Below are positions 16,993 through 39,533 of a stretch of DNA of 64,000 bases, piece after piece (position 1 is the stretch's first letter; every line of letters starts with the position of its first letter). The DNA comes from Bordetella petrii. Its GTDB lineage: Bacteria; Pseudomonadota; Gammaproteobacteria; Burkholderiales; Burkholderiaceae_B. Under the pieces are notes generated by a model. That model saw only the letters and a program-made list of their open reading frames with translations. It was not told the DNA's origin and did no database searches. The stretch is from the NCBI RefSeq assembly GCF_017356245.1, contig NZ_JAFMZZ010000001.1, positions 1,871,624-1,935,623 of the forward strand, written 5' to 3'. The translations under genes and the position numbers were made by a program.

Positions 16993-17068
16993 GGCCTGGT
17001 AGCTCAGTTGGTAGAGCAGCGGATTGAAAATCCGCGTGTCGGTGGTTCGATTCCGCCCCAGGCCACCA
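16993..17068 (+). tRNA. tRNA-Phe (anticodon GAA)
   Basis: A complete 76-base cloverleaf. The acceptor arms GGCCTGG and CCAGGCC pair perfectly, the anticodon stem is GCGGA/TCCGC with loop TTGAAAA (anticodon GAA), the T arm is GGTGG-TTCGATT-CCGCC, and CCA is encoded. The integrase gene follows 170 bases downstream in the same direction, so the 3' half is the likely attachment site of the island. Confidence 0.97.
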
Positions 17069-19343: not shown

Positions 19344-19632
19344 ACATGAGGTAAATCTGGCTAACCTGCCTCCCCTTAGCGACAAACAGAAAGCCGAACT
19401 GGCCGCGCTGTCGACGCGCGCTGATGAGGATGTCGATTACGGCGACATCCCTCCGTTGACGGCGGAGTTCTGGAAGACCGCTGAACGCGGCAAGTTCTAT
19501 AAGCCGACCAAGACGTCCACCACCGTACGCATTGATTCAGATGTCCTAGCATGGTTGCGGTCGCAAGGCAAAGGCTATCAGTCTCGCATCAATGCGATTC
19601 TGCGACGGGAAATGCTGTCATCACTAAAGTAA
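19324..19632 (+). CDS. brnA: BrnA family antitoxin
   Basis: A 102-residue antitoxin with a C-terminal ribbon-helix-helix domain (STTVRIDSDVLAWLRSQGKG, YQSRINAILRREM) that binds DNA and a basic/acidic N-terminal part that neutralises BrnT. The ATG at 19324 lies inside the end of brnT. Autoregulation of the pair is known for the family. Confidence 0.92.
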   Translation: MSKKSVKHEVNLANLPPLSDKQKAELAALSTRADEDVDYGDIPPLTAEFWKTAERGKFYKPTKTSTTVRIDSDVLAWLRSQGKGYQSRINAILRREMLSSLK

Positions 19633-20122
19633 GCAGTGATCAGCCCATACCAGCGATCAACACAGTAGAGGCTCCTAGCTCTGTTGCCGCGCTTAACGTA
19701 TCGGCTGAGGGCCGCCCCTTCCCCTTCTTCGTACCCCTGACGACCTATCCGCAAAATCCTGTAATTGTTGCAGATACCCAGGTCACTTATTGGCTATCGG
19801 TCAGGTCTAAGACTAAGTTGGCCCAACGCTTCAAGTGTCCTAACGACAGCCTCCACATGGTCGCATTAGGCACATTGCCGGTAACGCGACGTTGGTAGTT
19901 TCCATCGTGATACCGAAGCAAATAGACTTTGCAATTGCCGCGCCGCTGAACAGGTATCCGCGGCCAAGCAATAGGGCCGGACCGCACTTCGCTTCGAACC
20001 TCTTGCAGAGTTTCGCCCCATGCGGGTATCCACTATTCCCTCGCTGCGCTCGGTTGACACCTTCGACCCGACTTATCGCTTCGGGCCTGCGCGTGCTTCG
20101 CACTTGCACCAAATGGCAGCGA
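19633..20122 (+). other. Gene-free stretch after brnTA
   Basis: About 490 bases without a credible gene. Short open frames here lack coherent domains or ribosome-binding sites. The part around 19900-20110 has mixed GC content and could be decayed sequence; nothing specific was recognised. Confidence 0.4.
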
Positions 20123-20297
20123 GACGGTGGGTGGCGGACTTGCCGTTCCGGTCAGTGTGTCACGGCGTTCTCGGATTCAAGGGCTGCACGCCGGCGGCGC
20201 TTGCGGCCCGATAGGCCGGTGCCCCCTTGAGTCCTGCCCTGCGCCGTGCCTGTTCCCCGGAGACAGGGCAATTCCGCTCTGATTACCGGAGAAAACG
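20123..20297 (+). ncRNA. radC-motif-like structured leader, copy 1
   Basis: A GC-rich leader immediately before the antirestriction gene, homologous to leaders at 23988-24173 and 25309-25495. Shared blocks are GTGGCGG...TTGCCG, GTCAGTGTGTCACGG, TTCAAGGGC, GCGCCGTGCC and GGCAATTCCGC before ACCGGAG. TCAAGGG pairs perfectly with CCCTTGA further on. Position and associated genes fit the published radC RNA motif; identity with that family needs a covariance-model search. Confidence 0.6.
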
Positions 20298-20711
20298 ATG
20301 AATACGACGACTTCCTTAACAGCTTCGGCCATCACTGGTCCGGCTCGTCTGAACTTCTTGCCTAAACTCTTTACCGAGCAAAGCTACTTTTATGGTGAGC
20401 GTGCGGTATTTGAATGGATGCGCCGACGGTGCCAGGACTACAACGGCGGATACCGGGAGTATTACGCGGTATCGAACGGTGCGTATTTCATGGCGCCGCA
20501 TCGCCCTGAACCCATGCGCTTGCAGTGGGCGCTGAACTGGTCGAATGAAACGGTGTCGTCCGAGACGGCTGGCATCGTGGCGACATTGTTCGGCATCTAT
20601 GAAATTCTGGAGTCTTTTCCCGACGAAGATTTGGCTGAGCACTATCGCTTGTTGTGCCAGTATGCGTATGAATTACCTGAGAGCTGCTCCATCATGCGCT
20701 TGATTGACTAA
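20298..20711 (+). CDS. Antirestriction protein, ArdB/KlcA family
   Basis: A 137-residue protein matching the ArdB/KlcA fold: RLNFLPKLFTEQSYFYGERA, CQDYNGGYREYYAVSNGAYF and the MAPHRPEPM block. Such proteins protect incoming conjugative DNA from type I restriction. It follows a radC-like leader and is followed by a strong terminator, so it is a single-gene unit expressed probably on entry into a new host. Confidence 0.88.
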   Translation: MNTTTSLTASAITGPARLNFLPKLFTEQSYFYGERAVFEWMRRRCQDYNGGYREYYAVSNGAYFMAPHRPEPMRLQWALNWSNETVSSETAGIVATLFGIYEILESFPDEDLAEHYRLLCQYAYELPESCSIMRLID

Positions 20712-20719
20712 TCCATCTT

Positions 20720-20752
20720 GGGGCTTGCGTGGAAACGCAGGCCCCACTTTTC
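20720..20752 (+). terminator. Terminator after the antirestriction gene
   Basis: An 11-bp stem (GGGGCTTGCGT with ACGCAGGCCCC, one G-T pair), loop GGAA and a T-rich tail ACTTTTCT. It lies between the convergent antirestriction gene and arsH. Confidence 0.75.
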
Positions 20753-20756
20753 TCGG

Positions 20757-21464
20757 TCAGATACTCTTTTGATTCACGCGCTTGCTTAATTCCTCGGCAC
20801 TTTCCTTACGTTCGCTATAGCGGTCCACTAGATACGTTGTGGCATTGCGTGTCAGCAGCGTGAACTTCATCAGTTCTTCCATCACGTCTACGATGCGATC
20901 GTAGTAGGCCGACGGCTTCATGCGTCCGGCTTCGTCGAACTCTAGCCACGCTTTGGCAACCGACGATTGATTGGGAATCGTCAGCATACGCATCCATCGG
21001 CCCAGTACACGCATCTGATTAACCGCATTGAACGACTGCGAACCACCGGATACCTGCATGACGGCCAGTGTCTTGCCTTGTGTGGGGCGTACCGCACCGA
21101 CTGAAAGCGGTATCCAGTCGATCTGGGTTTTCATCAGGCCGGTCATCGCACCATGGCGTTCGGGCGAGCACCACACCATGCCCTCAGCCCACTGCGCGAG
21201 TTCGTGTAGCTCCTGTACCTTGGGGTGATCGGCGGGCGCATCATCGACCAGCGGCAGCCCAGAGGGGTTGAATAGGCGAGTTTCACCACCGAGGACATGC
21301 AGGATGCGCGCGGCTTCTTCGGCGGCCAGGCGACTATACGAGCGTTCGCGCAGCGAGCCATAGAGCAGCAGAAAGCGCGGGGCATGGGTAGCACGCGCCG
21401 GGGTGAATAACCGCTGTGTATCGGGCTGTTGGAATAATTCCGTGCCGATATTGGGTAGATCCAT
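20757..21464 (-). CDS. arsH: Arsenical resistance NADPH-dependent FMN reductase ArsH
   Basis: A 235-residue flavoprotein with the flavodoxin-like motif [15 protein letters not shown] and the [20 protein letters not shown] block typical of ArsH, which oxidises trivalent organoarsenicals. The ATG at 21464 follows AAGG and lies 10 bases past the arsC stop; the longer frame would overlap arsC. It is the last gene of the ars operon. Confidence 0.92.
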
Positions 21465-21474
21465 CTGCAATGCC

Positions 21475-21897
21475 TTAGACACGACGACCCTCGGCATCAA
21501 TCACAGGCTCGCCGTCTTCCTTGGTGAACGCACCACGTTGCGGTTGGGGCAGAATGTCCAGCACGATTTCCGATGGGCGGCATAGACGCGTGCCCATCGG
21601 GGTGACGACGATAGGGCGGTTCATCAGGATAGGGTGCTGTTCGATAAAATCGAGCAACTGTTCATCGGTCCATTTGGGGTCGCCTAGTCCGAGTTCGGCA
21701 TACGGTGTGCCTTTTTCGCGGAGCACGTCGCGCACGCTCAAGCCTGCATCGGCCAACAGCTTGACCAGTGTTGCGCGCGTAGGCGGTGTTTTCAGGTACT
21801 CGATGACCGTGGGGTCTTCGCCGCTGTTGCGAATCAGAGCCAGGGTGTTGCGGGATGTGCCGCAGGCGGGATTATGGTAGATCGTAATGTTGCTCAT
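21475..21897 (-). CDS. arsC: Glutaredoxin-dependent arsenate reductase
   Basis: A 140-residue ArsC of the Grx/E. coli type, with the catalytic cysteine in [20 protein letters not shown] and the substrate arginines in the RPIVV/GTRLCRP region. It reduces arsenate to arsenite for export by the Acr3 pump encoded just upstream. The operon carries a second, unrelated arsenate reductase at 23000-23497. Confidence 0.93.
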
Positions 21898-21909
21898 AGT
21901 AGTTCCGGC

Positions 21910-22992
21910 TTATCTCTGGGAAACGCTGGCGCTGGCTTCGTACCAGCCCTTGCTTTGGTTGACGATACGCACCACCAGCAGCATGACGGGTACCTCGATC
22001 AGCACGCCGACCACGGTGGCCAGTGCAGCCCCCGATTCAAAACCAAACAGGCTGATGGCAGCCGCCACGGCCAGCTCGAAGAAATTGCTCGCTCCGATCA
22101 AGGCTGACGGGCAGGCAATGTTGTGTTTTTCACCTGCGCGGCGGTTGAGCCAATAGGCCAGCCCCGAGTTGAAAAATACTTGGATCAGGATAGGCACGGC
22201 CAGCATGGCGATGACCAGCGGTTGTTGCAGAATGGCTTGCCCCTGGAAGGCAAACAGCAACACCAGTGTCAGCAGCAAGGCCGCAATAGATAGCGGGCCA
22301 ATGCGTTCCAGTGCTTGATCAAAGGCTGCTTGGCCCTTGCGCAGCAGTGCCTTGCGCCAGAGTTGAGCGATGATGACAGGTACCACAATGTAGAGGGCGA
22401 CCGACACCAACAACGTGTCCCACGGCACGGAGATGGCAGAAAGGCCGAGCAGCAACCCGACAATGGGTGCAAACGCAAACACCATGATGGTGTCATTCAG
22501 TGCGACCTGTGACAGCGTGAATACCGGATCACCGCCGGTCAGTCGGCTCCACACAAACACCATGGCTGTGCAGGGAGCAGCAGCTAGCAGAATGAGCCCT
22601 GCGACATAGCTGTCAAGTTGTTCTGCAGGCAACCATTGGGCAAAGACATGGCGGATAAAGATCCATGCCAGCAACGCCATCGAAAACGGTTTGACTGCCC
22701 AGTTAATAAACAGCGTGACGCCAATGCCGCGCCAATGTTGTTTGACCTGTCCCAATGCGCTGAAGTCGACCTTCAGCAGCATTGGGATGATCATGACCCA
22801 GATCAGAATACCGACAGGCAGATTGACCTGGGCGATCTCCATGCGACCAATGGCCTGGAATACGTCGGGAACGAATTGCCCCAACGCAATGCCCACGACA
22901 ATGCACAGGAAAACCCATACCGTCAGATAGCGCTCGAATACGCTCATCGTTGGCACCGGTGTGAGTCGGGCCGTTTCAATCGCTGCGGTCAT
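21910..22992 (-). CDS. acr3: Acr3 family arsenite efflux permease
   Basis: A 360-residue inner-membrane carrier with about ten membrane segments. The conserved cysteine needed for arsenite export is in AAPCTAMVFVWSRLTGGDP. The ATG at 22992 gives MTAAIETARLTPVPTMSVFE and overlaps nothing upstream; a longer frame runs back into the phosphatase-type arsC. The symbol arsB is often used for it although it is not homologous to true ArsB. Confidence 0.93.
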   Translation of the reverse strand: MTAAIETARLTPVPTMSVFERYLTVWVFLCIVVGIALGQFVPDVFQAIGRMEIAQVNLPVGILIWVMIIPMLLKVDFSALGQVKQHWRGIGVTLFINWAVKPFSMALLAWIFIRHVFAQWLPAEQLDSYVAGLILLAAAPCTAMVFVWSRLTGGDPVFTLSQVALNDTIMVFAFAPIVGLLLGLSAISVPWDTLLVSVALYIVVPVIIAQLWRKALLRKGQAAFDQALERIGPLSIAALLLTLVLLFAFQGQAILQQPLVIAMLAVPILIQVFFNSGLAYWLNRRAGEKHNIACPSALIGASNFFELAVAAAISLFGFESGAALATVVGVLIEVPVMLLVVRIVNQSKGWYEASASVSQR

Positions 22993-22999
22993 GAGTGCC

Positions 23000-23497
23000 T
23001 CACTTCTTGCCGATGTCGCGCAACTCTTGTTGCAACGACAGGCTATCCAGGCGCTGGAAAGGCAATGAGATGAACAATTCAATGCGTCGGCGAAGCGCCA
23101 TGGCGGTGTCGGAAAAGGCTTTGCGTTGCTGTTCTTCGGGGCCTTCAACTGCTGCAGGGTCTGGTACGCCCCAGTGAGCCGATACCGGTTTGCCCGGCCA
23201 TATCGGACAAACTTCCCCCGCAGCGTTGTCGCAAACCGTGAAGATGAAATCAAACACGGGCGCGTCGGGCGCGACGAACTCGTCCCAGCTTTTGCTGCGG
23301 TAGCCCGTTGCAGGCAGATGCAGTCGTTCCAGCGTCGCTAACGCTAACGGGTGAACTTCGCCCTTGGGATGACTACCCGCAGAATAGGCACGAAAACGGC
23401 CATTGCCCAAGCCATTGAGCAAGCCTTCAGCGAGGATGGAACGGGCCGAATTGCCCGTGCAGATGAATAACGCGTTGTAGGTGGTATCGGTCGTCAT
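23000..23497 (-). CDS. arsC: Arsenate reductase of the low-molecular-weight phosphatase type
   Basis: A 165-residue LMW-PTP-fold reductase with the P-loop CTGNSARS (C-x5-R) near residue 13 and the acid loop VPDPAAVEG. Members use thioredoxin or mycothiol-like reductants rather than glutaredoxin. It starts five bases after arsR ends and eight bases before acr3, so is tightly within the operon. Confidence 0.88.
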   Translation of the reverse strand: MTTDTTYNALFICTGNSARSILAEGLLNGLGNGRFRAYSAGSHPKGEVHPLALATLERLHLPATGYRSKSWDEFVAPDAPVFDFIFTVCDNAAGEVCPIWPGKPVSAHWGVPDPAAVEGPEEQQRKAFSDTAMALRRRIELFISLPFQRLDSLSLQQELRDIGKK

Positions 23498-23501
23498 GGT
23501 G

Positions 23502-23825
23502 TCAGCAGTCGCAGTGAGAGGATTCGGAGACTTCGCATACGCCGCCCTGGCAGCAATGTTCAGTCAGGTAGCCGAGTAGCCCATTCATCTGGGCAAAGTC
23601 GGCGCGGTAGATGAGGTTGCGGCCTTGCTGCTCAACCGTGACAAGACCTGCATGAGTGAGTTCTTTCAGGTGGAAGGACAAAGTGTTGCGGGCCACAGCA
23701 AGTTGCTCGGCCAGTACGCTGGGCGTCAGGCCTTCTAGGCCAGCAATAACCAAGGCGCGAAACACCCGAAGGCGTTGCGTGTGGGCCAAGGCGCTAAGTG
23801 CGGAGACAGTTTGAGCTTCGTTCAT
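23502..23825 (-). CDS. arsR: ArsR family repressor
   Basis: A 107-residue winged-helix repressor. The HTH is LTPSVLAEQLAVARNTLSFHLKEL. A C-terminal cluster (EHCCQGGVCEVSESSHCDC) is unusually rich in cysteines and is a likely As(III) site, different from the classical ELCVCDL motif in the DNA-binding helix, which is absent here. The ATG at 23825 is chosen because the longer frame lacks any conserved sequence. It heads the ars operon. Confidence 0.92.
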   Translation of the reverse strand: MNEAQTVSALSALAHTQRLRVFRALVIAGLEGLTPSVLAEQLAVARNTLSFHLKELTHAGLVTVEQQGRNLIYRADFAQMNGLLGYLTEHCCQGGVCEVSESSHCDC

Positions 23826-23837
23826 ATTTCCATGATA

Positions 23838-23849
23838 CAACGTTTGTTG
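23838..23849 (-). promoter_or_regulatory. Candidate ArsR operator
   Basis: CAAC-GTTT-GTTG, a short palindrome 13 bases upstream of the arsR start in an AT-rich promoter segment. Binding by ArsR is inferred from position only. Confidence 0.4.
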
Positions 23850-23987
23850 AATTAATGCATAGAGGAATGTCGAAATGCTGCGCCGTATCCCTCGCAGTGT
23901 GCCTTGAGGCGTTGCGCAGATAGTCAAGACCATGCAACGTCAATCAATAGACTTGCCTTGTAAGGCGACACAGGGCACCCGCATCAT

Positions 23988-24173
23988 CTGCTGTTGGAGA
24001 ATGAATGGGCGGCCTTGCTTTTAGGCCATCATGCCACGACGTGCTCCGCGTCAAAGGCGGCGCGTGCTGTGCACGCTGGCGGCCTGGTGGCCGTCTGTGA
24101 CCCTGTGACGGCGTGCGCTGCGCCGTGCCTCTTCGGTTATCCGGGCAATTCCGCCCAGTTACCGGAGAAGGTC
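23988..24173 (+). ncRNA. radC-motif-like structured leader, copy 2
   Basis: Second homologous leader, beginning CTGCTGTTG and containing GGGCGGCCTTGC, GTGCTCCGCGTCAAAGGCGG, GGTGGCCGTCTGTGACCCTG and CGGGCAATTCCGCCC before ACCGGAG. The last segment can form a GGGC-AATTCC-GCCC hairpin next to the ribosome-binding site. The 5' GTGTCAC half of the long stem has decayed to TGCCACG, making this the most divergent copy. Confidence 0.55.
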
Positions 24174-24566
24174 ATGAGCGACAAATCCCACGTTTCGCTG
24201 GAGCAGCATGTCTGCCTGGTGTGCGGCACCACTTTCGATACCGGCAGTCTGCTGCTGGACAAGCGTCTGCGTCAATGCATGGAGCACCACACGGTTACCG
24301 GCTGGGGCCTGTGCCGTGAGCACGAACAAGTGTTTAAGGATGGCTTCGTCGCCTTGGTTGAATGCGACCCAGCGCGTAGTGGTGGCGTGAAATCGGGGTG
24401 CATGAAACCCGAAGACGCTTATCGCACAGGTCGAGTGGCCCATCTGCGGCGCGAAGCATTCGCTCAGGTGTTCAACGTGCCGATTGAAAACACACAACCT
24501 TGCGTCTTTGTCGAGCCCGGCGTCCTCGCACATTTGCAGGCGATGGTCGAACCCGCATCGGACTGA
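24174..24566 (+). CDS. Conserved ICE protein with CxxC motif, function unknown
   Basis: A 130-residue protein that I do not recognise with a named family. It has an N-terminal CLVCGTTFDTGSLLLDKRL, then C..HH...GWGLCREHEQVF, which could form a zinc site, and an aromatic-poor acidic C-terminus. It has its own radC-like leader and its own strong terminator, so it is a single regulated unit, parallel to the antirestriction and radC genes. Confidence 0.7.
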   Translation: MSDKSHVSLEQHVCLVCGTTFDTGSLLLDKRLRQCMEHHTVTGWGLCREHEQVFKDGFVALVECDPARSGGVKSGCMKPEDAYRTGRVAHLRREAFAQVFNVPIENTQPCVFVEPGVLAHLQAMVEPASD

Positions 24567-24574
24567 TGCGTCTG

Positions 24575-24616
24575 GCGCGCCGCCCCATGTCGTATCCGGG
24601 TGCGGCGCGCTTTTTT
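24575..24616 (+). terminator. Rho-independent terminator
   Basis: A perfect 9-bp stem GCGCGCCGC / GCGGCGCGC followed by six T residues, nine bases after the preceding stop codon. Confidence 0.85.
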
Positions 24617-24681
24617 ATGCGCGGCAGTCGATGGATGTACGACGCTAAGTGTCCATGGCCTGCCCTGATTCGACAGGGGTA

Positions 24682-25242
24682 TTACACAGGTTTGCCGCCA
24701 AGGGTCTTGCCGATGGCGATGAACGGGTCAATCAGCGCGTGACCCGTGTGGTGCGTCATCGCTTGCAACGTCACGCCGTCTCGGTAGGTGTCATCGGTGT
24801 ACCAAACGCCTTGTACGTCTTGCCGGGACAACAAGCAAAGCACGGTGAGGGCATAGTCCATGACGGGTCCTTCTGGGTAATGCTCGCTCCCCCCACAGGT
24901 GACGTACTGGATGTGGTGCAAGCGGCCTTGAATGAAAGGCACGTTTGACAGCGCGCCAGGCCGCGGGCGGGACAGGTATTGAAGCTCACCTTCGGCACAG
25001 ACATTCGCTACCAAGTCCGCGTCCTCTACGGCATGGATGCGATCGTACGATGCGTGGCTCGGTACGAAGGGGCGGCCAATTCGGTTGGCAATGCGCAGGT
25101 GCAATTGCGCAAGATCCGTGTCCGATGGGGCGTGCTGGAACAGCACTTTCCCGCGTTGATGGAATGACCGCGTAGTGCGTCTCCCGGCCGGGCCGCGCTG
25201 CTCCAGGTTCGCTTTTCGCTCATCCCTGACGGGACGGGTCAA
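24682..25242 (-). CDS. Hypothetical protein
   Basis: Open frame of up to 186 residues without recognised family. The C-terminal two thirds (VEDADLVANVCAEGELQYLS, GPVMDYALTVLCLLSRQDVQ, THHTGHALIDPFIAIGKTL) have a normal amino acid mix, unlike the overlapping plus-strand frames, which favours coding on the minus strand. The N-terminus is Arg-rich and the real start may be internal, for example near FVPSHASYDRI. It lies between two plus-strand units of the element. Confidence 0.45.
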   Translation of the reverse strand: MTRPVRDERKANLEQRGPAGRRTTRSFHQRGKVLFQHAPSDTDLAQLHLRIANRIGRPFVPSHASYDRIHAVEDADLVANVCAEGELQYLSRPRPGALSNVPFIQGRLHHIQYVTCGGSEHYPEGPVMDYALTVLCLLSRQDVQGVWYTDDTYRDGVTLQAMTHHTGHALIDPFIAIGKTLGGKPV

Positions 25243-25308
25243 GCCCGCCTTGCGTATCGCTGACGCGGCGCGCGCGATGCGCGCTCAACGTCACCCCACT
25301 TCCATTCT

Positions 25309-25495
25309 CTGCTGTTGAGACAGGTGGCGGCTTTGCTTTGCCGTCAGTGTGTCACGGTGTGCTCCCAGTCAAGGGCGGCGCGTGCCGGGCACGCTTGCGG
25401 CCGATGGCCGTCTTTGACCCTGTGACACGGTGCGCGGCGCCGTGCCCTTGCCGGTTTCCCGGGCAATTCCGCCCGATTCCGAACCGGAGGCAGTC
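25309..25495 (+). ncRNA. radC-motif-like structured leader, copy 3
   Basis: Third copy, directly before the radC-like gene. It reads CTGCTGTTGAGACAG, GGTGGCGGCTTTGC, CAGTGTGTCACGG, AGTCAAGGGCGGCGCGTGC, CGTCTTTGACCCTGTGACAC and CGGGCAATTCCGCCC. GTGTCAC (about 25345) pairs with GTGACAC (about 25420), and TCAAGG with CTTTGA, enclosing the GC-rich arm, so a two-part stem is clear. Confidence 0.65.
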
Positions 25496-26020
25496 ATGCA
25501 GCAATATTCCCTTTTCGTCGATAGTCCGATCAACCCGAGTAATACGCTGCTGGTGCGCGAGGCCGATGGCGCGATGCGCCCGGCCCAGCGGGCCGAGATT
25601 CTGGCCGTGGCGCGTGAGCTGGTGTCGATCGACACGTTACATGGCGAGGATCTGAGCAATCCCGATAAAGCTAAGGCATTTCTGCAGTTGCGTCTGGCGG
25701 GCCTGGAACACGAGGTGTGCGCGTTGATGCTGCTCGATGTGCAATTGCGGTTGATCACATACCTGGAGCCATTTCGCGGCACCTTGAGCCAGGCGCCCGT
25801 TTATCCGCGCGAAATCCTCAAGCTGGCCCTACGGCATAATGCGGCCGGACTCATGATGGCCCACAACCATCCGTCGGGTCTGGCCGAAGCCAGTCAGGCG
25901 GATAGGCAATTGACCCAGGCCGTGCAGCAGGCCTTGGCGCTCATTGATGTGCGGCTGCTCGATCACTTCATTGTCGCCGGCACCACGGTGGTGTCGATGG
26001 CGCAGCGCGGGCAGCTCTAG
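25496..26020 (+). CDS. radC: RadC-like JAB domain protein
   Basis: A 174-residue protein of the RadC family (JAB/MPN+ metalloprotease-like fold). The metal-binding motif MMAHNHPSGLAEASQADRQL is complete. It lacks the N-terminal HhH extension of chromosomal RadC, like most mobile-element versions. The biochemical role of RadC is not established. It is preceded by the best-preserved copy of the structured leader. Confidence 0.9.
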   Translation: MQQYSLFVDSPINPSNTLLVREADGAMRPAQRAEILAVARELVSIDTLHGEDLSNPDKAKAFLQLRLAGLEHEVCALMLLDVQLRLITYLEPFRGTLSQAPVYPREILKLALRHNAAGLMMAHNHPSGLAEASQADRQLTQAVQQALALIDVRLLDHFIVAGTTVVSMAQRGQL

Positions 26021-26348
26021 CCGGTTGTGCCGAAGGCGGGCGATGCCCGTCTGACTTCCTTTCATGGGGTCGATGGCGACGTTTTTGACGGGTAACACGG
26101 CGGTTAGGGACGCCTGCGCGCGCCGGGCGGCGCTTGCCTGGCATGTCTGGGGCGCATCCGTCAAGGGTCGCGTCCGGCCCCCGTGTCCTCGCTGCGCTGC
26201 GGGCCGCGCCAGGGCCGTGCGCTTTGTCCCCTTGACGGTGCGCTCCCGGGACATGCCGCGTGGTGGCCATGGGCACGAAGGGCCACTCCGGCCCTACGTG
26301 CCCAGATGGGAACTCACCCCCGGGCTTCTCTTACGCAAGGAGCGCATC
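26021..26348 (+). promoter_or_regulatory. GC-rich structured leader of parB
   Basis: A 328-base gap before parB with several short inverted repeats, such as GGGCC-ACTCC-GGCCC near 26280-26294, and an AAGGAGCGC ribosome-binding site. It shows no clear homology to the three radC-like leaders. A promoter was not identified. Confidence 0.35.
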
Positions 26349-28364
26349 ATGAACACCACGATTTTCTCTGAAACCACCGCCGTGCAAGCCGTCAGTGACA
26401 AGGTATCGCAAGACGCGGCACAGCAAGCGCACACCGTGCTCGACCACGTTCAAGCCGCCGTCCAGACGGATGAAGGCGTGTCGCCCCAGCCGCAGGCCCC
26501 GGCGGCTGAACTGCGCTTTATCGCGCTCTCGCGCTTGCGCCTGTCCCAGCGCAATGTGCGCAAGACCGCCGGGCCGGTCGATGCCCTGGCCGATAGCATC
26601 GAGCGCGTGGGCCTGCTGCAAAACCTGATCGTCGTACCGCATGCGGACGGCAAAACGTTCGACGTCGTGGCAGGCGCTCGGCGTTGGGCCGCATTGCGCC
26701 TGCTGGCCAAGAAAAAACGCATGGCCCGCGAGCAGACCATTCCGTGCTTGGTCGTGCCCGATGCCCGCGCCATCACCGTCAGCCTGACTGAGAACGTGCA
26801 GCGCGAAGCAATGCACCCGGCTGATCAGTTCGAGGCGTTTCTGGCGATGGTCAACGAGGGGCGGCCTATCGAGGATATTGCGGCCGATTTTGGCGTGACG
26901 CCGCTGGTAGTGCAGCGCCGCCTGAAACTGGCCCGCATCTCTCCGCGCCTGATGGCGGCGTACCGCCAAGGCGATGTCACGCTGGAGCAATTGATGGTGC
27001 TGACGCTGACCGAGGACCACAAGGCGCAGGACGCCGCGTACTTCGATGCGCCACCCTATGAGCGCGAGCCTTACGCGCTGCGTCGGCGGCTCACGCAAGG
27101 CGACGTGGACGCGGCGCGTAGCCCCTTGGCGCATTTTGTGGGCGTGGACGCCTATACGGCGGCAGGCGGTGGCATCCGGCGCGATTTGTTCGCCCAAGAC
27201 GGCGATGGCGTGTATCTCACCGATGCGGATCTGCTGGCGCGGTTGGCGGCAGACAAGCTGGAAGCGCTGGCCGCAGACGTTCGCGCCGAGGGGTGGAAAT
27301 GGGTTGAAGCGGTGGCCGTGTTCGGCTACAGCGAACTGGCCGCGTTTCGCCGCGCCCCGCAGATCGAGCGCCAGCCCACCGCCCGGCAAGCCAAACGCCT
27401 TGCCAAGCTGCAAGCGCGGCAGGCAGCCATTGAGCAAGCGCTGCATGCCGCCGAAGACGCCGAGGACGAAGATGCCGCCGCTACGCTCTACGAGGAAGGC
27501 GACCGCGTGGGCGAAGCGCTGGACGCGCTCTATGCCGATTTGCTGGCCTACGCGCCTGAAACGATGGCGGCATCCGGCGCGGTGGTGACCCTCGATCACG
27601 ATGGGCAAGTCCTCGTTCATCGCGGCTTGCTGCGCCCGGAGGACGCCAAGGCCATCGAATCCCCCAGCCACGCCAAACACCCCAGCAGCGGCGACGGTGA
27701 GCCAGACAGCCAGAGCGACGCCGCCGACGCGCCACCTGCCAAAACGCTGTCCGAACGGCTGGTGCGCAACCTGAGCGCACACCGAACCGCCGCGCTGCAA
27801 GCCACGCTGGCGAAAAAGCCCGAGGTGGCACTGGCCGCGTTGGTGCATCGACTGGCGTTGACCGTGTTCTATCACGGCGGCGACAGCCTGCTGCAAATCG
27901 CTGCGCAACCGCAGGATGGTTTGACACACCATGCGCCGGAACTGGCCGAGAGCAAGGCGGCAGGCGAGTTCGCTGCGCTGCGCACCGCATGGCGTGAACG
28001 CCTGCCTGCCCGCGAGGACGAGTTGTTCGACGCCGTGCGCCAGATGAAGCGGGCCGATGTGCTGGCGCTGTTGGCGGTGTGCGTGGCAGGCACGGTTGAT
28101 GCCGTGGTACGCAGCGAACACGACACCCACGCTGACGCATTGGCGCAAGCCGTGGCGCTGGACATGAGCACTTATTGGCAACCCACTGCCCAAGCGTACT
28201 TCAATCATGTCTCCAAACCCCACATTCTGGCGGGATTGCAGACCTTCAAACCCTCGGAAGTGAACCGCGTGGGCGGCTACAAGAAGCCGCAGATGGCCGC
28301 AGAAGCCGAGCGGTACGCCACGGCGGCGGCATGGTTGCCTGACATGCTGCGCACATCAGTGTAA
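26349..28364 (+). CDS. parB: ParB/RepB/Spo0J family partition protein
   Basis: A 671-residue ICE-type ParB. An N-terminal ParB/Srx domain (FIALSRLRLSQRNVRKTAGP, VVAGARRWAALRLLAKKKRM) with TENVQREAMHPADQFEAF is followed by an HTH (IEDIAADFGVTPLVVQRRLK) and a long C-terminal region with an Ala/Glu-rich coiled coil near residues 340-395. It is far longer than chromosomal ParB (about 290), normal for Tn4371-type elements. The ATG at 26349 has an AAGGAG site; a longer frame upstream is Arg/Pro-rich and unlikely to be coding. Confidence 0.9.
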   Translation: MNTTIFSETTAVQAVSDKVSQDAAQQAHTVLDHVQAAVQTDEGVSPQPQAPAAELRFIALSRLRLSQRNVRKTAGPVDALADSIERVGLLQNLIVVPHADGKTFDVVAGARRWAALRLLAKKKRMAREQTIPCLVVPDARAITVSLTENVQREAMHPADQFEAFLAMVNEGRPIEDIAADFGVTPLVVQRRLKLARISPRLMAAYRQGDVTLEQLMVLTLTEDHKAQDAAYFDAPPYEREPYALRRRLTQGDVDAARSPLAHFVGVDAYTAAGGGIRRDLFAQDGDGVYLTDADLLARLAADKLEALAADVRAEGWKWVEAVAVFGYSELAAFRRAPQIERQPTARQAKRLAKLQARQAAIEQALHAAEDAEDEDAAATLYEEGDRVGEALDALYADLLAYAPETMAASGAVVTLDHDGQVLVHRGLLRPEDAKAIESPSHAKHPSSGDGEPDSQSDAADAPPAKTLSERLVRNLSAHRTAALQATLAKKPEVALAALVHRLALTVFYHGGDSLLQIAAQPQDGLTHHAPELAESKAAGEFAALRTAWRERLPAREDELFDAVRQMKRADVLALLAVCVAGTVDAVVRSEHDTHADALAQAVALDMSTYWQPTAQAYFNHVSKPHILAGLQTFKPSEVNRVGGYKKPQMAAEAERYATAAAWLPDMLRTSV

Positions 28365-37127: not shown

Positions 37128-37571
37128 GTGGCGTGTTGTCGGTCAGTCACTTTGCGCGCCGGTTGCACTGCGCTATGCGGCGCGTATGCGGTGTTCGGCG
37201 CAGTGGCCATGTCAGCGGCTTGGCCAGATGGCTGCGCCCCGGCGTGCAGACCGCTTACCCTCGCGGCGGCTCGCCGTCTACGTCTGGCTGGCCCGGCCTG
37301 TGGCCGTCGCCCGCGCCCGGCGCACCCGGCATCGACCGGATCGCCAGTCTATTCCCGTCACCAAGACGGCGGCAAGGGGCGCAGGGTGACAGCGAGGGCA
37401 AGATAAAAGGGCCAGCACGTGGTTGGCCGCAAACCCTTGTCTGCACGTGTGGGGAGACGACACGCGGGTCGGTGGACCGTGTGCCGTGGAAGGACGCTTG
37501 GGCTCATGGGTGCAGGCGTCGCCGTGTGCTGTCTGCGCTCGTGTGCGCTTGCCTTGTCGGGAGTGTGGCCG
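37128..37571 (+). pseudogene. Region between traF and relaxase, possible gene remnant
   Basis: A 444-base gap in an otherwise tightly packed transfer operon. The frame from GTG 37128 to 37406 has a signal-peptide-like start (TALCGAYAVFGAVAMSAAWP) and an abrupt Arg-rich end (YSRHQDGGKGRRVTARAR) without a domain between. In related elements a lytic transglycosylase is often found here, so an internally deleted remnant is possible; this is inference. Confidence 0.35.
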
Positions 37572-39533
37572 ATGGCGCAACCTGACGACGATCGTTTCCG
37601 GCCCCAGCCCGGTGCGCCTCGCCAGCGCGGCGGTGGCGGCGAACGCTTTGTGTCGCTGGTGCGCCGTCAGGTGGCCAAGACAGGCCAGGCGGCCGGCCGC
37701 TCGATGCGTGGCCGCCAGTTCGGCCGGGGCCGGGTCGCGGCTCGATTGAGAGGGCGCACGCCGACGCTGCGCAGCCGGCGCGTCGTCATCAAATCGCGTT
37801 TCGTGATGATCAAACCCGGCTCGGATGCCATCGCCGCGCACCTGCGCTACATCGAGCGCGATGGCGTCACCCGCGACGGCGAACGCGGCCAGGCCTATGG
37901 CGCCCAAACCGACGCGGCCGATACGCAAGCTTTCGCCGATCGCTGCCAGCAGGACCGGCACCAATTCCGATTCATACTTTCCAGTGAAGATGCTGTGGAG
38001 ATTGGCGATCTGCGCGCCTTCACTCGCACCTTCATGCAGCGCATGGAAGTCGATCTGCAAACCCGACTGGATTGGGTGGCCGTCGATCACTGGGACACCG
38101 ACAATCCGCATACGCATATCGTGCTGCGCGGACGGGCCGATAACGGGCAGGATCTAGTCATTGCACCGGAATATATGAGCCATGGCATGCGCGAGCGCGC
38201 TGCCGAGCTGGCCACCGAGTGGCTCGGGCCACGTACGGAACGCGAGATCGCCGACACCTTGCAGCGCGAAGTCCAGCAAGAGCGGTTCACCACCTTGGAT
38301 CGGTCACTGTTGCGCCTGTCAGTCGACGCCGAGGCAACAGGTGCATCGGGCTTGCGCGGCGACTCGTCTTATCAGCACGCGCTGGCCGCTCGCTTGCAGC
38401 ATTTGACCGGCATGGGTTTGGCCCATTTGAACGATGATGGCCGCTATCAGCTTGATGCAAAGTTGGAGGCCACGTTACGCAGCCTGGGCGAGCGCGGCGA
38501 CATTCTGCGCGCCTTGCACCGGGCAATGCGCGACCAGGCACGCGAATACGTCATCGAATCCGGGCCAGCGCTGCGCCATCCCATCATCGGCCGCATTGCC
38601 GACAAGGGGCTTGCCAATGAGCTGTATGACAAAGGTTATCTCGTCATCGACGCGGCCGATGGCCGGGCGCATTACCTAGCATTGCCGCCCGGTATGGTGC
38701 TGGCCGACTTCCCGACGAATGGCATCGTAGAAGTGCAGCCTATCCCGGAAAGCGCTGCCGACAGAAACATCGCCAAGCAAGCGGCGGGCGGTCTATATCG
38801 ACCCGGCGAACACTTGGCCGAACTCGAACGCTGGCAAGCGCAGCGTGAAGACAGTCAGGATCAGAAACGCCTGCCCAGTCCCGAAGCCATGGTGCGCTCG
38901 CATGTGATGCGTCTCGAAAGTCTGCGGCGTGCCGAGATTGTGGAGCGTGTGGACGATGAAACCTGGAAGGTGCCAAACGATCTCATCAAGCAGGGGCGGG
39001 AACATGATCTGAAGATGCGCCACGGCATCAACATCACGGTACGCTCGCACCTGCCTCTGGCGAACCAGATCGACGCGCGGGGCGCAACCTGGCTGGATCG
39101 CAAGCTGATCGACAACGGCAAAGACCTGACAGGACAGGGTTTCGGCGGCGAGGCGCGAGAGGCCATGCGGGCGCGTGCGGCCCACTTGGAAAGCGAGGGG
39201 CTGGCTCGACGTCAGGGGCTGCACGTCATCGTTGCGCGTGGACTGCTCAATACGCTGCGTGACCGGGAAGTGGCAGCGGTAGCTCAGCGGCTGGCCATGG
39301 AAACGGGCCTGACGTATCAGCCGCTGGGCGAAGATGGCCAGGCCGCCGGCGTCTACCGGCGTTCACTAATGCTGGCCAGCGGTCGCTACGCCATGCTGGA
39401 CGATGGGCTGGGTTTTACGCTAGTGCCATGGCGGCCGGTACTGGCGCAGCGGCTGGGTGAATCCATGTCGGTCTCGATCGAGAATGGCCGGGCGACGTGG
39501 GAGTTAGGTAAACAGCGCGGCCGAGCATTGTGA
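37572..39533 (+). CDS. rlxS: DUF3363 family relaxase (VirD2-like)
   Basis: A 653-residue conjugative relaxase. The three-histidine metal motif is HWDTDNPHTHIVLRG near residues 178-192, and AAHLRYIERDGVTRDGE is typical of the family; the C-terminal half is DUF3363. The ATG at 37572 gives MAQPDDDRFRPQPGAPRQRG, the usual family start. It would nick oriT to start transfer. The oriT itself was not identified. Confidence 0.9.
   Translation: MAQPDDDRFRPQPGAPRQRGGGGERFVSLVRRQVAKTGQAAGRSMRGRQFGRGRVAARLRGRTPTLRSRRVVIKSRFVMIKPGSDAIAAHLRYIERDGVTRDGERGQAYGAQTDAADTQAFADRCQQDRHQFRFILSSEDAVEIGDLRAFTRTFMQRMEVDLQTRLDWVAVDHWDTDNPHTHIVLRGRADNGQDLVIAPEYMSHGMRERAAELATEWLGPRTEREIADTLQREVQQERFTTLDRSLLRLSVDAEATGASGLRGDSSYQHALAARLQHLTGMGLAHLNDDGRYQLDAKLEATLRSLGERGDILRALHRAMRDQAREYVIESGPALRHPIIGRIADKGLANELYDKGYLVIDAADGRAHYLALPPGMVLADFPTNGIVEVQPIPESAADRNIAKQAAGGLYRPGEHLAELERWQAQREDSQDQKRLPSPEAMVRSHVMRLESLRRAEIVERVDDETWKVPNDLIKQGREHDLKMRHGINITVRSHLPLANQIDARGATWLDRKLIDNGKDLTGQGFGGEAREAMRARAAHLESEGLARRQGLHVIVARGLLNTLRDREVAAVAQRLAMETGLTYQPLGEDGQAAGVYRRSLMLASGRYAMLDDGLGFTLVPWRPVLAQRLGESMSVSIENGRATWELGKQRGRAL

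Follow-up and report, generated by a model that had tools for sequence, protein, structure and literature searches.

The stretch of Bordetella petrii DNA analysed here (the window, 64,000 nucleotides (nt), contig positions 1871624-1935623) is part of a chromosomal element and holds three similar leaders, placed before an antirestriction gene, a gene for a Cys-rich protein and a radC gene. Judged from sequence, these leaders probably belong to a new family of single-stranded DNA (ssDNA) promoters resembling the Frpo promoters of plasmid F. What the evidence favours is a structure of the transferred single DNA strand with an inverted promoter in it; a ligand-sensing RNA fits less well. Support at this level comes from the hairpin, a conserved inverted promoter signature, the lack of a forward promoter signal and the orientation of the leaders relative to the relaxase gene. 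A wider proposal is put forward tentatively and falls short of what we would call probable: that a large, previously unrecognised family of ssDNA promoters in beta- and gammaproteobacterial integrative and conjugative elements (ICEs) would combine an inverted sigma-70 promoter on one hairpin arm, existing in the transferred strand alone, and a pre-opened loop the size of a transcription bubble with an RNA hairpin around the ribosome-binding site acting as a lock on read-through transcripts.

Leader copy 1 (20131..20292, plus strand) precedes the antirestriction protein gene (20298..20711, plus; PF03230, E 6.2e-22). Copy 2 (24007..24168, plus) precedes an open reading frame (ORF) for a Cys-rich protein of 130 amino acids (aa) with CxxC motifs (24174..24566, plus), which gave 0 Pfam and 0 NCBIfam matches, and copy 3 (25325..25489, plus) stands before a radC-like gene with a JAB domain (25496..26020, plus; PF04002, E 1.2e-38). 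The leaders were matched with R1, a sequence-only model made from 47 sequences, partly the window copies themselves, with the partly homologous rows L073 and L088 left out; copies 1, 2 and 3 scored 83.1, 101.4 and 94.9 bits, respectively (E-values 1.2e-23, 2.4e-29 and 2.5e-27 in 904,688 bases searched). An earlier reading of the window, made from the sequence only, had described three homologous leaders with blocks in the same order, serving unrelated coding sequences. Alignment throughout their length and the R1 matches agree with this, as do the two different Pfam families and the CxxC protein without a family; the GGCAATTCCGC hairpin, ACCGGAG and ATG also lie where that reading placed them. 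Its leader extents covered all three loci, but the part common to the whole family begins 8, 19 and 16 nt inside the starts it had proposed. Copies 2 and 3 have some further common bases 5' of the family-wide part.

The leaders form a large family in Tn4371-like conjugative elements, where they stand before radC, Cys-rich, antirestriction and DUF2958 genes. An exact pattern search matched at least 118 stretches of public genomes. Among the matches listed, 107 had enough upstream sequence and preceded 53 radC genes, 31 Cys-rich genes and 23 others, by rough automatic pattern labels under which many of the 'other' rows are visibly radC; the 23 others include chance matches, further radC genes, antirestriction genes and one DUF2958 gene. 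Nine leader contexts carry the DUF2958 label, and Pfam confirms one. After removal of ten chance loci, picked out by eye, and of sequences containing N, the early set retained 96 sequences (85 unique). R1 finds 137 leaders in 100 sources, chosen as most had already matched; 129 of these are nearly full length and 113 unique, and the 113 serve the promoter-pattern and parsimony counts below. At E<=0.001, 9 of the 369 class-level genomes and 30 of the 399 order-level genomes gave leaders; both sets include the genome studied here, and several of the matches are near the threshold. Certain elements hold two or three leaders, each immediately before its own gene.

The reverse complement of the 5' arm of the leader hairpin reads TTGA-N14-TGnYAnnnT in 100 of the 113 unique leaders, at a constant spacing that was read from the data and not preset. 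None of the 113 plus strands has this pattern, the rounded value for 2,260 shuffles is 0.0, and ten of the 13 leaders lacking the full pattern retain TGnYAnnnT, deviating at the -35 element or by an insertion. The order-level search gave 24 leaders, 16 of them non-identical to the earlier ones (similarity 0.73-0.99); 13 of the 16 carry the pattern, including four at similarity 0.75-0.82. Parsimony on a tree of the 113 leaders required no change at A(-11) and T(-7), 10 changes each at -8 to -10, 10 at -12 (T or C only), 16 at -13 and one each at G(-14) and T(-15). The columns of TTGAC required 0, 1, 5, 1 and 7 changes, and the column facing its first T required 18. These per-column counts fit a -10 element. 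The 36-pair structure described below leaves A(-11), T(-7) and the initial T of TTGAC without partners, so pairing does not account for their invariance. By alignment, the inverted -35-like and extended -10-like sequences of the window lie on the minus strand at 20175..20180 (TTGAAT) and 20154..20162 (TGACACACT) in copy 1, where column conservation supports both and the pattern count the latter, at 24049..24054 (TTGACG) and 24028..24036 (TGGCATGAT) in copy 2 and at 25367..25372 (TTGACT) and 25346..25354 (TGACACACT) in copy 3.

In duplex DNA this inverted promoter faces away from the gene, and it would direct transcription into the gene only with the minus strand folded. An ordinary leftward duplex promoter, giving an antisense or divergent transcript, would fit a -35/-10 signature that reads leftward in duplex DNA. 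Yet in tandem arrays of leaders and genes it would transcribe the preceding gene in antisense, and retention of the paired parts would be left unexplained; we regard it as the least credible of the readings weighed here. Forward promoters were sought by consensus matching, and none reached at least 9/12 in the 118 leader contexts. A scan of the window gave one promoter-like site versus 2.4 in shuffles, and none before a leader.

The structure was tested on a 137-row alignment (120 distinct rows) built without reference to structure. The main hairpin has 36 pairs with 97.2% of cells paired, and 13 of the pairs show two-sided changes, in 111 cells. These values were reached by 0 of 500 shuffles, which ignore relatedness and apply to a structure derived from the consensus of these very sequences; versions of the structure slid along the alignment drop to 31-54% paired. 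The earlier suggestion that the leader itself is conserved and structured, with covariation, is thereby borne out. Two-sided changes occur mostly in the tip, then in the AAGGG/CCC stem and then in CACGGCG/CGCCGTG. The TCAAGG arm does pair, as had been proposed, but the family alignment shows its partner in copies 2 and 3 to be CCCTGTGAC (24101-24109 and 25418-25426, respectively) and not the CTTTGA immediately before it. In the window copies, the duplex holding the -35 element and the spacer stops at the TG; next come an internal loop, with 16-17 nt in the non-template strand and 17-19 nt in the template strand, and a downstream duplex. Paired to 96.8% and nearly invariant, this last duplex forms the base of the rod (GGCGG..TTGC with GCAATTCCGCC). 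A separate terminal hairpin of 11 pairs includes part of ACCGGAG and is 92.6% paired; two-sided changes affect 4 of its pairs (equalled in 1 of 500 shuffles) and 11 cells (0 of 500), and its one-sided departures are largely of the G.U type. The terminal hairpin and the rod base exclude each other because they have columns in common. A further pairing given by folding prediction, of columns 24-27 with 130-133, had no covariation and 22 pair-breaking events and was not used.

The proposed mechanism may be outlined as follows. During conjugation the minus strand, which serves the leader genes as template, would be the first to reach the recipient, as ssDNA, and would fold into a long imperfect hairpin. 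One arm would then act as the non-template strand of a sigma-70 promoter (TTGAC and an extended -10 element, TGnYAnnnT) and the other as the template. Beyond the TG, the internal loop, with 16-19 nt per side, would be about the size of a transcription bubble, and the duplex could re-close downstream of it at GGCGG..TTGC with GCAATTCCGCC. RNA polymerase would initiate just before GCAATTCCGC and leave the hairpin into the gene, producing an untranslated leader of about 30-36 nt with ACCGGAG as the ribosome-binding site. The start is predicted at a CGG or AGG just 5' of GCAATTCCGC, 30-36 nt from the ATG; from the register, with the minus strand folded as template, it would fall at 20265..20267, 24142..24144 and 25460..25462 (plus strand) in copies 1, 2 and 3. 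The gene would be off before transfer and again after second-strand synthesis, because the promoter in the duplex faces away from it. The sequence-only reading had held that promoters located downstream of the leaders would speak against leader control; this situation is nearly what is observed, in that transcription is predicted to start close to the leader's 3' end.

The terminal hairpin allows an extension of the ssDNA promoter, not exclusive of it, in which an RNA lock forms a second part of the switch. A read-through RNA made from duplex DNA would contain the whole leader and have its ribosome-binding site hidden in the terminal hairpin, and an RNA started on the folded single strand would lack the 5' part of this hairpin and be translated. 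Such a lock may exist, given that bases 5' of the predicted start are required to form the terminal hairpin, whose one-sided departures are of the G.U type. The predicted start (columns 136-138) falls within the 5' half of the hairpin (columns 129-140), the hairpin is supported by the changes described above, one-sided G.U departures suit an RNA, and the stem has a different sequence in the DUF2958 leaders. On the other hand, the outermost pair of the hairpin does not form in 45 of its 96 cells, most DUF2958 copies have only short perfect stems, and read-through transcription is an assumption of this model. The two-part switch is considered a rather doubtful addition.

The ssDNA promoter further implies that the minus strand is both the folded and the leading strand. 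Consensus folding favours the minus strand for the leaders (-122.5 versus -116.8 for plus) and for six F-type Frpo sequences (-412.4 versus -372.2), whereas the radC RNA motif of Rfam (RF01754) favours the plus strand (-67.0 versus -64.6). In random sets of 12 leaders the minus strand was better in 47 of 50. Per cell, A.C and G.U mismatches number 70 and 54 in the leaders, 24 and 14 in Frpo and 8 and 21 in RF01754; in unpaired columns, C-to-T changes if anything exceed G-to-A changes per site. This comparison leans towards the minus strand without being decisive. As for orientation, 25 of 26 leaders lie upstream of a DUF3363 relaxase gene and on the same strand, as judged on the 15 contigs holding both among 24 leader-bearing genomes in which DUF3363 was sought; G453:C2:416041-416141 and 416142-416214, both fragments, enter this count as a single leader. 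In three annotated records, 4 of 4 leaders are likewise upstream and on the relaxase strand. In the window, the interval from traF to the relaxase gene holds a candidate oriT region, where a block common to four elements starts (37396..37470, end approximate, with no strand assigned). A search of this interval for an IncP-type nic sequence gave no match. According to passages of PMC11541004, the relaxase gene typically enters last. With oriT at the candidate block and the relaxase gene last, the minus strand would lead with the leader region. The earlier suggestion that the leaders mark entry-phase genes is supported as probable.

Several observations weigh against the ssDNA promoter. The spacer of 15 nt is shorter than the usual 17, and the forward promoter result amounts to no enrichment rather than depletion, as shuffles of the leader contexts reach 9/12 in just 0.3%. 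Applied to the F Frpo sequences, the same scan found neither convincing -35/-10 boxes nor an inverted promoter on one arm. The downstream duplex at the rod base is compatible with the structure rather than proven, as covariation hardly supports it. Evidence on strand from folding energy is mixed. Single leaders fold better as the minus strand in only 46 of 113 cases, and in a set of less than 85% mutual identity the two strands are nearly equal (minus -99.0, plus -98.4). With G.U pairs forbidden, the leaders still prefer the minus strand (-114.5 versus -110.4), so that the preference is not entirely a wobble effect; RF01754 is then about equal (-62.6 plus, -63.0 minus). When the window copies were folded as DNA over about 149 nt, the plus strand had the lower energy in copies 2 and 3; over longer stretches the minus strand was better in two of the three. 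Such folding gave the rod on both strands in copies 1 and 3 but on the plus strand only in copy 2, with z-scores of -0.74 to -3.67. The excess of A.C over G.U among pair-breaking events is modest (53 versus 37 by parsimony). Leaders are also related by descent, so the orientation counts carry less weight than independent cases would, and there are exceptions. The fourth leader of this ICE lies on the strand opposite the relaxase gene, and the leader of plasmid pJS3066 (L129:10842-10989) is opposite an IncP-type TraI.

The main competitor of the ssDNA promoter is a cis-acting RNA leader (a riboswitch, attenuator or protein-binding RNA) transcribed from an upstream promoter. The covariation fits RNA as well as DNA, the terminal hairpin with its part of the ribosome-binding site, its paired cells, two-sided changes in 4 of 11 pairs and many G.U departures would suit an RNA, and the single-sequence folding does not favour the minus strand. 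Nevertheless, no forward promoter of at least 9/12 appeared in any of 118 contexts, versus 6 of 11 RF01754 copies (shuffles 5.1%) in a scan of 160 nt extending 40 nt into the motif, which gives RF01754 the appearance of a truly transcribed RNA. Among the unpaired bases of the leaders, those that vary least make up the inverted promoter; the main hairpin shows no excess of G.U over A.C, unlike RF01754 (21 versus 8); and no Rfam family matched. An RNA leader is accordingly considered unlikely.

The sequence-only reading had also assigned the leaders to the radC RNA motif on the strength of their genes. Leaders do stand before radC and antirestriction genes, as Pfam confirms, but such an association alone does not define the family, and RF01754 and the leader model showed no cross-match in either direction. 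The RF01754 covariance model gave no match at E<=5 in 19600-26400, 0 matches over the cut-off (gathering score 40) in the whole genome and 0 among 20 related leader loci at the gathering score; conversely, R1 found 0 of 11 true RF01754 copies. The covariance model itself works, with matches in 5 of 398 genomes of the phylum, from which the 11 true copies were taken. Identity with the radC RNA is thus ruled out. RF01754 takes its name from the same gene, radC, and its copies also cluster; one genome holds four within 8.6 kb, all on the same strand. The two differ in sequence and structure. No other Rfam family matched the leaders either, the sole sub-threshold match being BjrC68 at the end of the antirestriction gene (20660-20754).

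According to passages of PMC9849209, Frpo1 and Frpo2 of plasmid F form stem-loops in which -10 and -35 boxes are rebuilt, and early expression in the recipient depends on them; conversion to duplex is proposed there as the off-switch. By sequence and predicted structure, the leaders likewise show a hairpin that reconstitutes -10 and -35 elements, with a 15-nt spacer. Frpo and ssi sequences (F, ColIb-P9) and the leaders have in common a template-strand hairpin before antirestriction and other establishment genes, ssb being found on the Frpo side. Frpo and leaders both occur in multiple copies per element (two in F), with the genes on one strand directed toward the transfer genes, and in both the template strand is favoured by consensus folding. 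The F leading region contains antirestriction, ssb, ParB, psiB and DUF932 genes followed by traM, all on one strand. Differences are also evident. R1 gave no match at E<=1 in the F leading region or four further Frpo loci; the leaders are about 165 nt long versus 591 nt for the F segment compared; and they belong to Tn4371-like ICEs with a DUF3363 relaxase, whereas Frpo belongs to IncF plasmids with MOBF. As far as the accessible parts of PMC11541004 and PMC12826799 go, published Frpo surveys have mainly used BLAST with known sequences, one also applying structure and a -35/-10 consensus to islands. With no detectable similarity to the Frpo tested, the leader family would therefore probably be missed by BLAST-type searches. 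No description of these leaders was found in the openly licensed PubMed Central literature, as represented by titles and the openings of abstracts, supplements aside.

Frpo also yields mRNA as well as primer, according to passages of PMC7736820. This dual output, together with a location akin to that of ssi sites, would be in line with a site on the transferred strand where loading of a primosome or primase initiates second-strand synthesis, with no mRNA role. Against such a site, the leaders adjoin a start codon and ribosome-binding site, are repeated for neighbouring genes and are conserved in a promoter-like manner, and we consider it very unlikely. The STAXI motif lies near antirestriction, Ssb and integrase genes, and its authors, in the portion of the article cited, considered ssDNA but preferred RNA (PMC2864571, Weinberg 2010). 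It consists of repeated pseudoknots with UUCG loops and is set apart from the leaders by this description. Integron attC sites are imperfect hairpins, formed by a single DNA strand and recurring between gene modules. The leaders are unlike attC in being on the 5' side, next to the start codon, and in having promoter-like sequence.

If the leaders are indeed ssDNA promoters, Tn4371-like ICEs with metal-resistance and other adaptive cargo would express antirestriction and establishment functions before their DNA becomes double-stranded, and antirestriction and other early genes would be switched on simultaneously during single-strand entry. Zygotic induction would then extend from IncF and IncI plasmids to ICEs, and the signature would provide a sequence grammar for locating other ssDNA promoters. 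The leaders would also offer short templates (about 165 nt) for dissecting the recognition of folded ssDNA by RNA polymerase, and a marker for leading-region genes without known function (RadC-like, CxxC and DUF2958).

The carrier is a Tn4371-like ICE, with int, radC, parB, parA, traF, an RlxS-like relaxase gene, cargo and traG/trb in order, and this layout agrees with that described for such ICEs in passages of PMC2789088. A tRNA-Phe gene (16993-17068) is taken as attL and is followed by an integrase-like ORF (17178 onwards, plus). A 20-nt exact copy of the tRNA 3' end at contig position 1984305 gives an ICE of about 96 kb. After the integrase come the antirestriction gene (20298 onwards, plus), arsenic-type genes on the minus strand, the Cys-rich gene (24174 onwards, plus) and radC (25496 onwards, plus), and downstream of radC are genes for ParB-type, DUF736 and ParA-type proteins, a TraF-type peptidase and the DUF3363/RlxS-like relaxase. 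These window genes are backed by family-model matches, except for the Cys-rich gene, the integrase and the cargo; the integrase and the arsenic- and copper-type cargo were assigned by eye from translations, and traG/trb from ORFs and layout only. The MOBP-type relaxase ORF (37419..39533, plus) is identified by family models, and its true start is probably near 37590, as the RlxS model begins at residue 58. A fourth leader lies outside the window near the right end of the ICE (contig 1977666-1977825, minus strand; L156:2167-2326); it precedes a Cys-rich gene with an in-frame stop and may be a remnant of another element.

Some further observations concern the surroundings of the leaders. CxxC proteins of about 130 aa are among the commonest genes behind them. 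Of 112 upstream contexts, 82 contain a second conserved block, CCTGCGCG, up to 150 nt before the leader; 33 have a longer version that includes GC.CTTGC and ends 20-39 nt before the leader, and in the window a block of this type lies at about 20087-20108. Near one leader-bearing radC gene there is a C4 antisense RNA with its a1/b1 target region (L088:4990-5194). In the IncP plasmid pJS3066, the leader stands next to an IS21 element and before a DUF2958-like gene truncated to 26 aa. In a Delftia element (L151:11198-16143), a Qat anti-phage operon lies on the minus strand to the left of the leader, opposite the leader gene. Within the window, arsenic-resistance-type genes (assigned by eye; 20757-23933, minus strand) separate leader copies 1 and 2, as if this block had been inserted into an array of leader-gene modules.

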